64,000 bases of DNA. Origin: Pseudidiomarina tainanensis. Its GTDB lineage: Bacteria > Pseudomonadota > Gammaproteobacteria > Enterobacterales > Alteromonadaceae. The stretch lies in NCBI RefSeq assembly GCF_004214835.1, contig NZ_PIQJ01000001.1:434001-498000 (forward strand), given 5' to 3'. Shown here in pieces: positions 4,060 to 35,700 of the stretch (positions within the stretch are counted from its first letter, which is position 1; every line of letters starts with the position of its first letter). The notes below the pieces were generated by a model. The model made no database searches and was not told where the DNA came from. It saw nothing but the letters and a program-made list of their open reading frames with translations. Position numbers and translations under genes: made by a program.

Positions 4060-4400
<341 letters not shown>

Positions 4401-4416
<16 letters not shown>

Positions 4417-6668
4417 GACACATCTTTTTCAGTATCAGAACGACCCTCTAATACATCGCGATTAAATTGTTGAGTAAAACGAATAAACTCGTTCAGTGGC
4501 ATCGCTCGGCCGTAGAAGAAGCCTTGTTGGTAATGACATTTTTGCTGTTGTAAGAACTCAACTTGTTGTTCATGCTCAACGCCTTCAGCAACCACACTCA
4601 TATTCAACGTGTGAGCAATACGAATCAACACTTCAACTAGCGCTTTTTGTTGGCCTTGATGCGGTACATTATGCAAGAAGCTACGGTCAATCTTAATCAC
4701 ATCGATGGGGTAGGAGCGCAGGTAGTTCAAACTTGAGTAACCGGTACCAAAGTCATCAATAGCTAACGAAATACCGGCATCGCGCAGCTTTCTTAAGTTA
4801 GCGAACTGTCGTTCTTTATTGCGCATGAGCATTGATTCGGTAATTTCGAACATCAGGCGGTTGGTTGGAACATCGGCCGCAGCAATCACGTTAAGCCAGT
4901 GTGTTGCTGCTTGGCGGTCATTAAATTCGCGCGGCGAACGGTTAAGCGCAACGGCCAAATCAAGACCAGCTTCATGCATTTTCTTCCAATCGCGTACCAC
5001 CTGACGTAATACGAAATCACCTAACCCAATAATCGCACCGGTTTTTTCTGCAATCGGGATAAACTCCGCTGGCGAAATCGCGCCGCGTTCTGGGTGAGTC
5101 CATCTAATAAGCGCTTCACAACGTGTCAGTAACCCAGTTTCGGTTTCAATGACGGGTTGATAATGCACTTCAAATTGTTCCGCCTCGATGCCCTTAATAA
5201 TTTGATGGTGCAAATTAATATCGCGCTCGGTACTTTGGCGCAGTTGCTCATCAAAAAAGTGCACGCTCATTGCGCCTTGCGCTTTGGCTGCGTACATCGC
5301 TAATTCGGCGTGCTTCAATAGCTGTTGCACTTCTTGGCCGTCATGCGGGAACATCGCGATACCGGTACTGGCGGTCATATTAATATGGTTGTGCTCGATA
5401 TCGAGCGTGTGCAAGAGATCGTTCATAATCGCTTTGGCACGAATTTCGGCTTCGCTCGGGTCGTTGAGGTCACGTAGTACAATGGCAAATTCATCGCCGC
5501 CAATACGTGCTAATAAATCATCTTCACGAATACTGGTACGAATACGTTCCGCAACCCGCTGCAATAGCGCATCACCAACTTCATGGCCTAACACATCGTT
5601 GATTTCGCGTAAGTGATCAAGGTCGAGCACTAACAATGCAAATTTCTGCTGGTTGCGCAATGCTGATCGAATATCGGCGCCCAGTTGTTCCGAGAAGAAA
5701 TTACGATTTGGTAAATCGGTTAAGCCATCGTAACGCGCTTGATAGGCAATCGTTGAAATAGCGCCACGTAAGCGATGCTGGGTAAAAATCAGCATCAAGA
5801 ATGCGGATAAGATTACCGCTGTAAGGCCAATGCCAATCGCCCAATGCAACCAAAAGTCGGCGTTGGTGGCAACCCATTGGCCATCACGCGGAAACGCAGC
5901 GAGCTCCCAGCGACCGCGTGGGAAGGAAATTTCGGCAGTGAGTGCGTCGGCATTGAACACATCGGCATTGCCGGCAAACGGGATTGGATTCGGGTTTAAG
6001 TCATTTTTTGCATGACGAATGGCAAACGAATAATTTGGGTGTTGATAAAACCGGACGCCTTCAAGTAAGTGCACATGATCAATCACTAACGAGGCGACGC
6101 CCCACAATGACCGGTCGTTGCGAAAGATGGGCATCCGCGCAATCAGCGCATCACGACCTTGCGTCAGCCGCAATGGCCCCGTCAACACCACATCTTTGAC
6201 GGCGACGGCACGCAAAATACCTGCATATTGATCGGTATCAAGGCGATAATTAAAACCAATCATGGATTGGTTACCTTCAACCGGATAAACAAACTTAACG
6301 ATTAAATCAGGCGCAAGCGCGACATGCATGATGTCGAGATTAGAAGAGAGAAACTCATCGATGATATGTTGAAGACGAACACGGTCGGGCGAATCTTGCC
6401 ATAGAATTTCAGGACGCAGGGCACGTAACGCGAGCATGTTGGCTTGCAGGCGCTGTTCTATTTGGCCGCGCATCGAGCTTAAGTGTTCGCTAGCTCGACG
6501 TTTTTCTATTTCCAGTTGCTGCTGTCGCTCGCCGTCGACAACCAAGTACACCGCGTACAACAAAGCGGATGCAATAAATAGCACAACAACAAGGTAGCGC
6601 AATAAACGCCATCGTTCGGACTGCTTACCGAACTTATCTGGAAAACTCACAACATCTATCTGCTTCAT
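4401..6668 (-). CDS. Membrane CHASE-GGDEF-EAL cyclic-di-GMP turnover protein
   Basis: The 755-residue protein has a transmembrane helix near 24-44, an extracytoplasmic sensor region of CHASE type (about 75-230, with LTQGRDALIARMPIF), a second helix near 274-296, a GGDEF domain (motif intact at 390-394, RIGGDEFA) and an EAL domain (EAL at 518-520, with IDDFGTGYSSL and VAEGVEH retained). Both motif sets look intact, so it could be a diguanylate cyclase, a phosphodiesterase, or both; the sequence cannot decide. The signal sensed is unknown. It is monocistronic and divergent from mraZ. Its final codons and stop overlap the 3' end of rnpB on the opposite strand. Confidence 0.9.
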
Positions 6669-32996: not shown

Positions 32997-34694
32997 TTAG
33001 AAGTTGGTGACACGGTTGGCTTCCGCCAGGCTAATGGTACCTTTTAAAACTTTGAGCAACGCCGACTGACGCAATGAATTAATGCCATCGCGCCGTGCTT
33101 GTTTCGCAATCTCTAACGATGAAGCTCCCTGCATTATAAGATCAGCGATGCTATCTGTAATGGGCATAACCTCGTATACACCTGTACGACCTTTATACCC
33201 GCCGGTGCACTGATCGCAACCGACCGCCTTAAATATTTTCGCAGTCTTTACCTGTTCTTCTGAAAAGCCTTGGCGCAACATTTCTTCTTTCGGCAATTTT
33301 TCTTCGTCTTTGCAGGTGTTACATAAACGACGAGCAAGGCGCTGCGCAATGATTAATGTGACTGAACCAGCAATGTTGTACGACGGCACGCCCATGTTCA
33401 TCAAACGTGTTAAGGTTTCTGCGGCCGAGTTGGTGTGGAGGGTAGAGAGTACTAAGTGACCCGTTTGTGCCGCTTTAATCGCAATTTCCGCGGTTTCTAA
33501 GTCACGAATCTCACCCACCATGACCACGTCCGGGTCTTGTCGTAAGAACGAGCGCAACGCGTCGGCGAAGGTTAAACCAGCCTTCACGTTAATCTGCACT
33601 TGGTTGATACCCATCAAGTTGATTTCCACCGGGTCTTCCGCGGTAGAAATATTGCGCTCCGGGGTATTTAAGATGTTCAAACCGGTATATAGCGAAACGG
33701 TTTTACCAGAACCAGTCGGACCGGTGACCAGAATCATGCCCTGCGGTTTTTCCAACGCCTCTTCATAAAGCTCTTGCTGATCAGGCTCATAACCAAGTGA
33801 TTCAATCCCAATCATGGCCGCCGCAGCATCAAGTATCCGCAGTACAATTTTTTCACCATACAGCGTTGGTAGGGTACTCACCCGGAAATCAATCGCTTTG
33901 TGCTTCGATAACTTGAGTTTGATACGACCATCTTGCGGTAAGCGCCGTTCCGCGATATCAAGTTGTGACATAACTTTTAAACGCGCCGCGATACGTCCCG
34001 CCAGCTGTACCGGCGGCTTAGCAATTTCATGGAGTACGCCGTCGATACGAAATCGTACGCGATATTCCTGTTCGTACGGTTCGAAGTGCAAATCTGATGC
34101 GCCGCGTTTAATCGCATCCAAGAGCATTTTGTTGATGTAGATGACAATCGGCGCATCGTTCTTAGTATCCGCCGAAACGGCACCGGTGTCATCTTGACGC
34201 TCGCTTTCAGCGTCAATATCCCGCAACTCTTGTTCATCTTCTGCGGTAACGCCCAATGCCGAGGAGTCATTTTCGAGAACGCTATCAATGAGTTTTTGGA
34301 GCTTGCTCTCTTCCACCAATACCGCTTCTGCTTGCATGCGGGTACGAAACTGGAATTCATCAAGCGTTTCAATGCGGGTTGGATCCGAAACTGCGACGTA
34401 CAGCACGTTGCCGCGCATATACAGCGGAATCGCGTGATTCTTGCGAATTAATCGTTCATTAATAAATTCTTGTGGAATGTAATCTGGATTAAAGGCGTCG
34501 AGATCGAGCCAAGGGGCGTTTGATTCGAGATAACAAAAATTGGCGAGTTCGCTTGGCGAAATAAGCTTCTGGTCAATTAAGCACGCACTAAACGGAAGTT
34601 TATTTTCCCAAGCATACTCACTGCATTTGGTGAGCTTATCTTCAGGGATTAATTTATCACGCAGCAACAGCGCCGCGAGGGAGTGATGCAGCAT
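32997..34694 (-). CDS. pilB: Type IV pilus extension ATPase PilB
   Basis: The 565-residue hexameric ATPase has an N-terminal GspE/MshEN domain, Walker [15 protein letters not shown], the Asp box and Walker B region [12 protein letters not shown], the His box and a tetracysteine zinc site (CNTC...CDQC). It powers pilus assembly. It lies downstream of pilA, separated by a terminator-like hairpin, so it may be read at reduced level from the pilA promoter or from its own. Confidence 0.97.
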
Positions 34695-34786: not shown

Positions 34787-35335
34787 TTAACCTGCTGGAA
34801 CTGTGGTTGCCACAGCTTCACCCGTACAGCCATCTACACGAGAATTGCCTTCTGCGTCGTAGTCTGAACAAGTGATGTCCCAAGACATATTACCACCGAC
34901 CAATTTTGGCGTAAGATTTACAACAATATATGAGCCGTCAGTATCGGTAGCATCTAATTCAGCAATAATACCTGTCACATCATCGGTACCTTCCGCAGTT
35001 CCGTCTCCATCAGCGTCAACTGGGACTTGCGCAGTTGCAACTGTTGCAGTGCGAACACCCGTTACTGATACGGTCGTACCATCTAAATCTATACGGCCCG
35101 GAATTCCGTCTTGACCAGCAGTACTGCAGTTATCTGCGTCAAAGATTCCACGCTTTTGATAACACATAGCAATACCGGTTTTATATGATGCAAGTGCAGC
35201 CATTCCTGTACCAGCTTTAGCACGCTGGGTGTAGTCGCTGTACATAGGAATTGCTACAGCAGCCAAGATACCGATAATCGCAACAACGATCATCAATTCG
35301 ATTAAGGTAAAACCTTTTTGTACTTGCGCTTTCAT
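34787..35335 (-). CDS. pilA: Type IV major pilin (PilA-like)
   Basis: The 182-residue prepilin has an 8-residue leader ending in KG, cut before [14 protein letters not shown], with Glu5 of the mature form present. A globular domain follows with two cysteine pairs (CYQKRG/C and C/C near the end of the protein). Pilin forms the fibre used in twitching, adhesion and DNA uptake. It heads the pilABCD group on the minus strand. A long leader RNA upstream carries a predicted cyclic-di-GMP riboswitch. Confidence 0.93.
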
Positions 35336-35384
35336 GAAATATCTCCCGAAAGTAATTTCAACTTATTTAGTTATTGTAGTTGTT

Positions 35385-35421
35385 AAAAAGTAGCATCCAG
35401 ATGCAATTCAGCACTTGGATG
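35385..35421 (-). terminator. Predicted terminator in the pilA leader (riboswitch expression platform)
   Basis: On the minus strand CATCCAAGTGC (35421-35411) pairs with GCATCTGGATG (35404-35394) apart from one A-C mismatch and one G-T wobble, around the loop TGAATT. Four bases then five T follow. A competing hairpin TGGTCG/CGGCCA just upstream shares the first bases of this stem, so it could act as the alternative fold. Which state ligand favours cannot be told by eye. Confidence 0.6.
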
Positions 35422-35524
35422 GCCGCTTTTAACGACCACTACAAGTCTTCTGCATCAGCCGAAAGAACAAGTGGTATTTGCTTTGTCGACTTGTATCGGA
35501 AAGCTACTTCATCCACCAGACTTT

Positions 35525-35622
35525 AGCCTGCAGCCCCGCTATCCGCTGGAAATTTATATAGCATCCCAGTTGGACCGGAGGTTTTGCGTCACCACCTCTC
35601 GGTGGCTTTGCCTTTTAAAGCA
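35525..35622 (-). promoter_or_regulatory. Cyclic-di-GMP-I (GEMM-I) riboswitch aptamer in the pilA leader
   Basis: The minus-strand RNA carries the conserved GEMM-I landmarks in order. These are GGCAAAGCC, a short hairpin CCACC-GAGA-GGTGG with a GNRA tetraloop, TGACGCAAA, CCTCCGG opening the second helix, and GGATAGCGGGG closing it. These match the Vibrio Vc2 aptamer (GGCAAA, GACGCAAAGCC, CTCCGG, GGTAGCGGGG). The GG of GGCAAA aligns with the ligand-contact position 20 in Vc2, so cyclic-di-GMP is the likely ligand. It sits 190 bases upstream of pilA with a terminator between. Boundaries are approximate; the P1 pairing CCAGGC/GTCTGG is tentative. Confidence 0.88.
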
Positions 35623-35672
35623 TGCCTGGCCCCTAAGCCCATTTCTGGTGCTTAGTTGCGCATTGCATGTAA

Positions 35673-35700
35673 AACATAGCAGATGATTTAAATTCGTCAA
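35673..35700 (-). promoter_or_regulatory. Predicted promoter of the pilA leader transcript
   Basis: On the minus strand TTGACG (35700-35695), a 16-base spacer and TATGTT (35678-35673) lie directly downstream of the nadC stop, placing the start near 35666, upstream of the riboswitch. Confidence 0.5.

Follow-up and report, generated by a model that had tools for sequence, protein, structure and literature searches.

Type IV pili are usually connected to c-di-GMP through proteins, and class I c-di-GMP riboswitches bind their ligand with nanomolar affinity. Among the closest described systems, Cdi-2-4 of Clostridioides difficile is a c-di-GMP riboswitch ahead of the major type IV pilin gene pilA1, and the available part of PMC6366702 describes it as a class II ON switch acting through transcription read-through. 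The first-pass annotation of the DNA studied here had cited Clostridioides as a precedent, which is correct in that a pilA1 c-di-GMP riboswitch exists, and incorrect in that it belongs to class II and not to class I. In Vibrio cholerae, gbpA is preceded by the class I switch Vc1, and orthologues of gbpA and tfoX are preceded by Vc1 and Vc2 homologues (PMC6366702, available part); Vc1 has a long leader in which no intrinsic terminator is apparent, according to the accessible portion of PMC4744006. Class I switches act in both directions: the two of V. cholerae respond oppositely, and Bc2 of B. thuringiensis is an ON switch (PMC6366702, same part). Finally, the Geobacter GEMM-Ib switches carry A20 and prefer cGAMP (PMC6456294, in part, where Idiomarina appears for a GGDEF structure), and while the first-pass annotation had cited Geobacter for pilin riboswitches as well, the accessible portion of PMC13194489 names Geobacter GEMM switches upstream of two other genes.

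The window, i.e., the whole stretch of 64,000 nucleotides analysed here, belongs to a Pseudidiomarina genome of 2.37 Mb and has a class I aptamer ahead of its major pilin gene, pilA. It resembles Vc1 and Vc2 in aptamer architecture, in pocket letters and in its γ-proteobacterial host, and Vc1 also in its long leader. It differs from them in its target, the major type IV pilin, and in its expression platform, a hairpin competing with the aptamer helix P1 (anti-P1) that was found in one genus only. Like Cdi-2-4, it precedes the major type IV pilin gene, but it is of class I, lacks a conserved terminator and is predicted to be OFF. The Geobacter GEMM-Ib switches belong to the same aptamer class, whereas the pilA leaders studied here have G20 in 21/21 cases.

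The aptamer itself is already covered by the Rfam family RF01051, and what appears to be new is the pilA target and the platform in this lineage. A search of the open-access literature returned neither a class I switch ahead of pilA in a γ-proteobacterium nor an anti-P1 platform, although absence there is no proof. The earlier remark that no case was described in the lineage is in line with this search, which returned nothing on a Pseudidiomarina riboswitch or on this switch. The pilA riboswitch is a clean, testable case and not a new kind of RNA.

The pilA leader and its aptamer

Named relatives of PilB with 79-98% identity are found in Pseudidiomarina species and in Idiomarina loihiensis. 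The minus-strand gene order, as given by Pfam content, is nadC, pilA, pilB, pilC, pilD, and the gap between nadC and pilA contains the promoter TTGACG-16-TATGTT (35700-35673), the aptamer, and then 190 nt up to the pilA ATG at 35335. The features of this region are the following.

35673..35700, minus strand: sigma70-type promoter of the pilA transcript, with -35 TTGACG (35700-35695), a 16-nt spacer and extended -10 TGCTATGTT (TATGTT 35678-35673)
35526..35622, minus strand: c-di-GMP-I (GEMM-I) aptamer with P2 and its GNRA loop, and P3; RF01051 59.3 bits; pocket G20 = 35612, A47 = 35585, C92 = 35530
35334..35349, minus strand: pilA ribosome-binding site (RBS), UCGGGAG at 35349-35343, up to the A (35335) and U of the start codon AUG
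34787..35335, minus strand: pilA, coding for the major type IV pilin of 182 aa (N_methyl domain, PF07963, at E 1.3e-9), with pilB-, pilC- and pilD-type frames downstream on the same strand

The pilA promoter matches the consensus at 9/12 positions and has a TG ahead of the -10. Its pattern with the 16-nt spacer recurs in 21/21 riboswitch-bearing pilA leaders of the genus (referred to below by locus number where needed), with TTGACC in L046 and TATTTT in L033. From this pattern, transcription would be expected to start near 35667, about 45 nt upstream of the aptamer. The RBS UCGGGAG is kept in 19 of the 20 aligned leaders, L043 having GCGGGAG, and it reads CTGGAGAA in the remaining leader, L033, which was omitted from the alignments, from the local and constrained folding, and from the anti-RBS and anti-P1 pairing counts because its platform is not alignable.

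The 325-nt leader (35336-35660) folds better than 100/100 of its shuffles (z -4.85). Its nucleotide identity to the window exceeds that of pilA in 15/17 comparisons, e.g., 92% versus 66% in P. marina (PilA 54% at the amino acid level), the exceptions being L046 and L051, where the leader is slightly less similar than pilA; L033, L042, and L054 do not enter this table, their pilA start being shifted or a contig end being reached. PilA (34787-35335) has 96% amino acid identity to its counterpart in L041 (P. woesei) and 54% to that in L037 (P. marina), and the leader (35336-35670) has 86% and 92% identity, respectively. These opposite nearest relatives suggest that the pilin coding region may have been exchanged beneath a conserved leader.

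The Rfam model RF01051 matches the window with 59.3 bits, well above its gathering cut-off of 35. Its E value is 4.7e-9 when all families are run on the window, and the match at 35526-35622 on the minus strand is the sole one in the 2.37 Mb genome (E 4.1e-11). The first-pass annotation had read GEMM-I landmarks in this leader and had proposed precisely this covariance check; the score bears the reading out, and the landmarks follow on the minus strand in the claimed order: GGCAAA (35612-35607), GAGA as the GNRA loop (35600-35597), GACGCAAA (35590-35583), CCTCCGG (35581-35575), and GATAGCGGGG (35543-35534). Across the 20 leaders, all P2 cells are paired, five of the six P2 pairs have both partners exchanged in one species or more, and the covariation score of the helix is reached by 0/500 shuffles. 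P3 is nearly invariant and hence uninformative in this respect. The P2 loop is GNRA in 20/20 leaders with six sequence variants, and this retention of the motif despite the different sequences matches the expectation for a docking loop. The pocket positions 20, 47, and 92, whose numbering we take to be that of the Vc2 structure, are G, A, and C in 20/21 leaders, window included; the exception is L054, with T at 92, whose assembly is 77% complete. This is a genuine class I c-di-GMP riboswitch aptamer, and it would be expected to bind c-di-GMP in the pilA leader. The signal supply in the window genome comprises 31 GGDEF matches (30 above the curated cut-off) and 17 EAL matches.

Distribution in the genus and in the family

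RF01051 is found in 21 of the 26 genomes of the genus, and all 21 have one match ahead of pilA. The genus has 24 matches in total, 3 of them away from pilA (L032, L034, L036). In one genome, G210, RF01051 is absent and no clear pilA is seen either. An Rfam run on 15 of the 20 pilB loci found in the genus (L085-L099; L100, L101, L102, L142, and L144 were left out) gave an aptamer of the same clan ahead of pilA in 14/15 titled contigs, the exception being P. taiwanensis. The aptamer-free pilA leaders (L063, L066, L068, L078) enter none of the structure counts given here. In P. taiwanensis (L063, also L092), the aptamer-free leader retains the promoter TTGACG..TATGTT, and GCCAGGCAT joins AGTCTG directly, as though the stretch between the P1 strands had been deleted. 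This leader, with its promoter and without an aptamer, is a natural comparison for function.

Across the family Alteromonadaceae, window's genus included, 120 of the 196 sampled genomes have RF01051. Other members of the family share the aptamer family, but the loci examined in them do not show its association with the pilin: a PilA-like pilin within about 1.5 kb (E 0.01) was found at 0/60 of the RF01051 loci fetched from outside the genus. Since these loci are part of the outside matches, a rare pilA-linked aptamer elsewhere is possible. By Pfam, nine downstream proteins outside the genus include two GGDEF proteins and one each of a GbpA-like LPMO, a subtilase, a ParA-like ATPase, a DUF3718 protein, an alginate lyase, a reprolysin-like protein, and a protein of no family. 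The search in the other direction, from 47 pilB-bearing loci outside the genus, gave 0/47 RF01051 matches at the cut-off, for loci that were picked by pilB and that in some cases stop at contig ends; they are part of the 59 returned, L152-L163 (12) having been left out.

Two exclusive folds share the strand 3' of the aptamer

35515..35630, minus strand: extended aptamer helix P1, with 5' strand GCCAGG (35630-35625) and CUUU (35620-35617), and 3' strand AAAG (35524-35521) and UCUGGU (35520-35515)
35450..35533, minus strand: anti-P1 hairpin (expression platform), CUGCA-GGCU-AAAG (35533-35521) pairing with CUUU-C-GGCU-GA-UGCAG (35465-35450)

The strand directly 3' of the aptamer, CUGCAGGCUAAAG, can pair with the upstream GCCAGG..CUUU, which gives P1, or with CUUUCGGCUGAUGCAG about 55 nt downstream, which gives anti-P1. 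The two computed folds are mutually exclusive, as the anti-P1 hairpin and the aptamer both use the 3' P1 strand and C92, and such exclusive pairings around a shared ligand contact correspond to the usual architecture of a switch.

P1 has 98.5% of its cells paired in the 20 leaders, but it is nearly invariant and therefore lacks support from covariation. The anti-P1 pairing holds in 99.1% of the cells in the same leaders, as compared with 20-50% in slid versions. It shows one two-sided exchange, C-G to U-A in L050, and six pairs with a one-sided change that keeps the pairing; this covariation is slight, its score being equalled by 24/500 shuffles. The anti-P1 core is part of the local minimum free energy (MFE) fold in 20/20 leaders, with mild z values (+0.7 to -2.1, positive in L046 and L054), and in most leaders the anti-P1 loop contains an ATG, a candidate start for a leader peptide. 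MFE folding of the whole leader was dropped as a guide to mechanism because species differ and the aptamer is often not formed. Given this inconsistency, we relied on local folds, constraints, and comparison.

The covariance model of the anti-P1 platform, R1, matches 20 of the 26 genomes of the genus, i.e., the 20 used to build it, and 0/369 other genomes of the family in a search whose filters can drop weak matches. On the evidence of these model searches, the anti-P1 platform is specific to the genus. L033 has no R1 match, yet it has an analogous hairpin across C92 (GCAGG-C-GAAGUC with GGCUUC-UCUGC).

Masking of the RBS as the predicted output

35496..35512, minus strand: anti-RBS in the loop of the anti-P1 hairpin, AUGAAGUA-GC-UUUCCGA, 15 bp complementary to UCGGGAG-A-UAUUUCAU
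35459..35465, minus strand: second anti-Shine-Dalgarno (anti-SD) sequence, CUUUCGG, a complement of UCGGGAG within the 3' strand of the anti-P1 hairpin

The position of these sequences within the anti-P1 hairpin points to a mechanism at the level of translation. Transcription would proceed from the conserved promoter about 45 nt ahead of the aptamer, and the two exclusive folds would then compete for the strand CUGC(92)AGGCUAAAG. When the ligand is absent, this strand would pair with CUUUCGGCUGAUGCAG and remove C92 from the pocket; the two RBS-complementary sequences would be locked in the anti-P1 hairpin, the RBS would be open and pilin would be made. When c-di-GMP is bound, P1 would be clamped on the shared strand and the anti-P1 hairpin would break, so that the freed anti-RBS sequences could pair with UCGGGAG..AUG and pilin translation would drop. 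That the class I riboswitch in the pilA 5' leader (about 330 nt) turns translation OFF seems to us an evenly balanced proposition. The fuller statement, in which c-di-GMP is a direct repressor of major type IV pilin translation in Pseudidiomarina/Idiomarina through a genus-specific anti-P1 platform whose freed strands mask the RBS, is put forward tentatively and with rather less than even weight.

The evidence on the output is mixed. In the window, the loop anti-RBS AUGAAGUAGCUUUCCGA makes 15 pairs with UCGGGAGAUAUUUCAU, in a duplex of -15.9 kcal/mol that is equalled by 1/300 shuffles. It is strong in 8/20 leaders (at most 11/300 shuffles), weaker in 2 (28 and 51/300), and at chance level in 10, and we rejected a uniform 15-bp anti-RBS across the genus on these counts. 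The second sequence, CUUUCGG, is the top SD complement of the whole leader in 12/21 species and is outdone by one to four regions in 9. As a control, both were compared with 44 start regions of the window, taken from ATG-started frames of at least 150 codons with uncurated starts. The pilA start ranks 2 of 44 for the loop anti-RBS and 19 of 44 for CUUUCGG, which other start regions of the window fit equally well, so that CUUUCGG is not supported as a gene-specific anti-SD.

When each fold was imposed, the SD was more open with anti-P1 than with P1 in 17/20 leaders (mean 0.46 versus 0.32; 0.30 versus 0.06 in the window), but the energies needed to open it are nearly equal (mean 3.0 versus 3.2 kcal/mol; 4.0 versus 4.3 in the window). 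The energy model without ligand favours P1 over anti-P1 in 7/20 leaders (L038-L042, L048, L054). These folding results and those on the complementary sequences together leave translational repression at an even chance. In the window, forcing P1 costs about 3 kcal/mol (2.8 and 3.0), a cost that ligand binding could pay. The inner anti-P1 stem could also survive the formation of P1, in which case the anti-RBS would stay hidden. Overall, the folding evidence behind the OFF sign is modest, and the start-region control weakens part of it.

A single-copy riboswitch ahead of pilA that most of a marine genus shares would put the supply of pilin under direct control of a second messenger. If the translational OFF reading is true, the sign and the level of this control are opposite to those of the C. 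difficile pilA1 switch. That reading would also provide a worked-out mechanism for class I switches of γ-proteobacteria. Their action is poorly known, since the paper on Vc1 saw neither a terminator nor an anti-SD and, in its available part, no worked-out mechanism is apparent (PMC4744006). The visible anti-P1 hairpin and anti-RBS, together with the aptamer-free P. taiwanensis leader that has a promoter, make the question testable.

The strongest rival keeps the aptamer and the two folds and reverses the sign, so that c-di-GMP raises pilin, e.g., because the formation of P1 allows an open structure to arise in the 3' hairpin or in the start region. We regard it as unlikely, but as the alternative to be taken most seriously. 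Precedents exist, since pilA1 of C. difficile is activated through its class II switch, the one pilA c-di-GMP riboswitch described there (PMC6366702, available part), and lowered c-di-GMP gives less expression from the class I switch Vc1 (PMC4744006, available part). In the leaders themselves, the SD is no more open with anti-P1 in 3/20 (L035, L043, L048), against the 17/20 where it is, and the SD complements are located in the very element that the ligand would free, which argues against an ON switch.

Less probable still is a control of elongation or stability that dispenses with an intrinsic terminator, in which the long leader would be open to Rho-dependent termination or RNase attack in one of its two folds. 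In the leader of about 330 nt, two hairpin domains are conserved and a U run is not, as such a control would allow; furthermore, neither V. cholerae class I switch is reported as a transcription terminator in the part of PMC6366702 at hand, and neither terminator nor anti-SD is apparent for Vc1 in that of PMC4744006. Still, the complementarity to the SD offers the translational reading a simpler route than Rho or RNase.

An intrinsic terminator is not conserved

35374..35444, minus strand: 3' hairpin closed by UUGUAGU (35444-35438) and ACUACAA (35380-35374), enclosing CATCCA..TGGATG (35421-35394), T5 (35389-35385), and the GGTCG/CGGCC stem

The first-pass annotation had proposed that cyclic-di-GMP directly controls pilin transcription through a terminator hairpin with T5 and a competing hairpin. 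The part of this proposal that stands is a class I aptamer whose position would suit a control of pilA through its RNA; the route through a transcriptional terminator is unsupported. The hairpin CATCCA..TGGATG (35421-35394) and the T5 (35389-35385) do exist, but the stem has an internal A/C mismatch and CTAC precedes the T5, so that the T run is not next to the stem. The overlapping GGTCG/CGGCC hairpin (35437-35421) exists as described. Neither feature is conserved, whereas the anti-P1 hairpin, which had not been listed, is.

The 3' domain as a whole folds in 20/20 leaders (z -1.5 to -5.6). A closing helix of the UUGUAGU/ACUACAA type is the best one in 16/20, the exceptions being L035, L038, L039, and L041, although its low complexity (GUU/AAC repeats) means that this conservation tells less than the counts imply; the window's own MFE prefers an alternative closing helix for the hairpin. 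What follows the closing helix is mostly A-rich, and U-rich in L043. The T run, 5 long in the window, is shorter in those nearest relatives where the hairpin is retained: 4 (L037), 3 (L038, L039, L041), and 2 (L048). A pattern scan that demands an unbroken stem, and that a mismatched stem would escape, gave no terminator-like site on the minus strand between 34600 and 36700, all 6 sites being on the plus strand, and none in 19 of the 21 leaders, the other two being L033 and L035.

With no conserved T run and pattern scans that are mostly empty, we rejected an intrinsic terminator as the general mechanism. Single species may still have a terminator, as L042 and L043 have T5 runs a short way past the 3' hairpin. 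The specific version, in which c-di-GMP selects between the CATCCA..TGGATG terminator with its T5 and the overlapping GGTCG/CGGCC hairpin, appears very improbable. It can draw on the presence of hairpin and T5 in the window, on the terminator-like sites elsewhere in the leaders L033 and L035, and on the T5 runs of L042 and L043, but it has to contend with the fading T run, the intervening CTAC, and the empty scans. Moreover, neither hairpin overlaps the aptamer or anti-P1 strands, which leaves no visible link to ligand binding.

Ligand specificity

A pocket tuned to another dinucleotide (3',3'-cGAMP) or an aptamer of the variant class c-di-GMP-I-GGC (RF03167) can practically be dismissed: RF03167 scores 54.8 bits on the window, slightly below its cut-off of 59, and passes it in P. 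aestuarii (61.5), but its consensus carries G at the A47 position (GACGCGAA) where 21/21 leaders have A, and 21/21 leaders have G20, a letter that, as the A20G change in a cGAMP switch, shifts selectivity to c-di-GMP (PMC6456294, available part). We thus rejected the GGC variant, on its score and on the A at position 47, and the cGAMP (GEMM-Ib) identity, which needs A20. Because P. aestuarii exceeds the RF03167 cut-off, automatic annotation will at times apply the GGC label to these leaders.

Other c-di-GMP elements in the family and in the window

Three loci may associate c-di-GMP-I matches with another type of pilus. In L172 (genome G072), two tandem c-di-GMP-I type aptamers, 12 nt apart (1500-1692), lie upstream of an ORF that resembles a fimbrial chaperone by sequence. 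In L032 (G214) and L036 (G201), both from the window's genus, a second c-di-GMP-I match lies about 610 nt ahead of a chaperone-like ORF, identified as PapD_N by Pfam in L032. The matches in L032 and L036 suggest that chaperone-usher pili may likewise be under c-di-GMP-I switches.

Other Alteromonadaceae have c-di-GMP-I aptamers ahead of genes with a GGDEF domain (L012, L024, and similar loci), a possible feedback loop; according to the available part of the review PMC6366702, c-di-GMP riboswitches rarely control c-di-GMP enzymes. In the window itself, a GGDEF and an EAL match adjoin each other at about 4506-5738 on the minus strand, either one within an open frame of 755 aa, near the RNase P RNA (4061-4419), with no link to pilA seen. 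Finally, PilB (33000-34694, minus strand) has an MshEN domain (PF05157), one of the recognised receptor domain types for c-di-GMP (PMC5013675, available part), and the control of the pilus by c-di-GMP may therefore have a protein arm as well.
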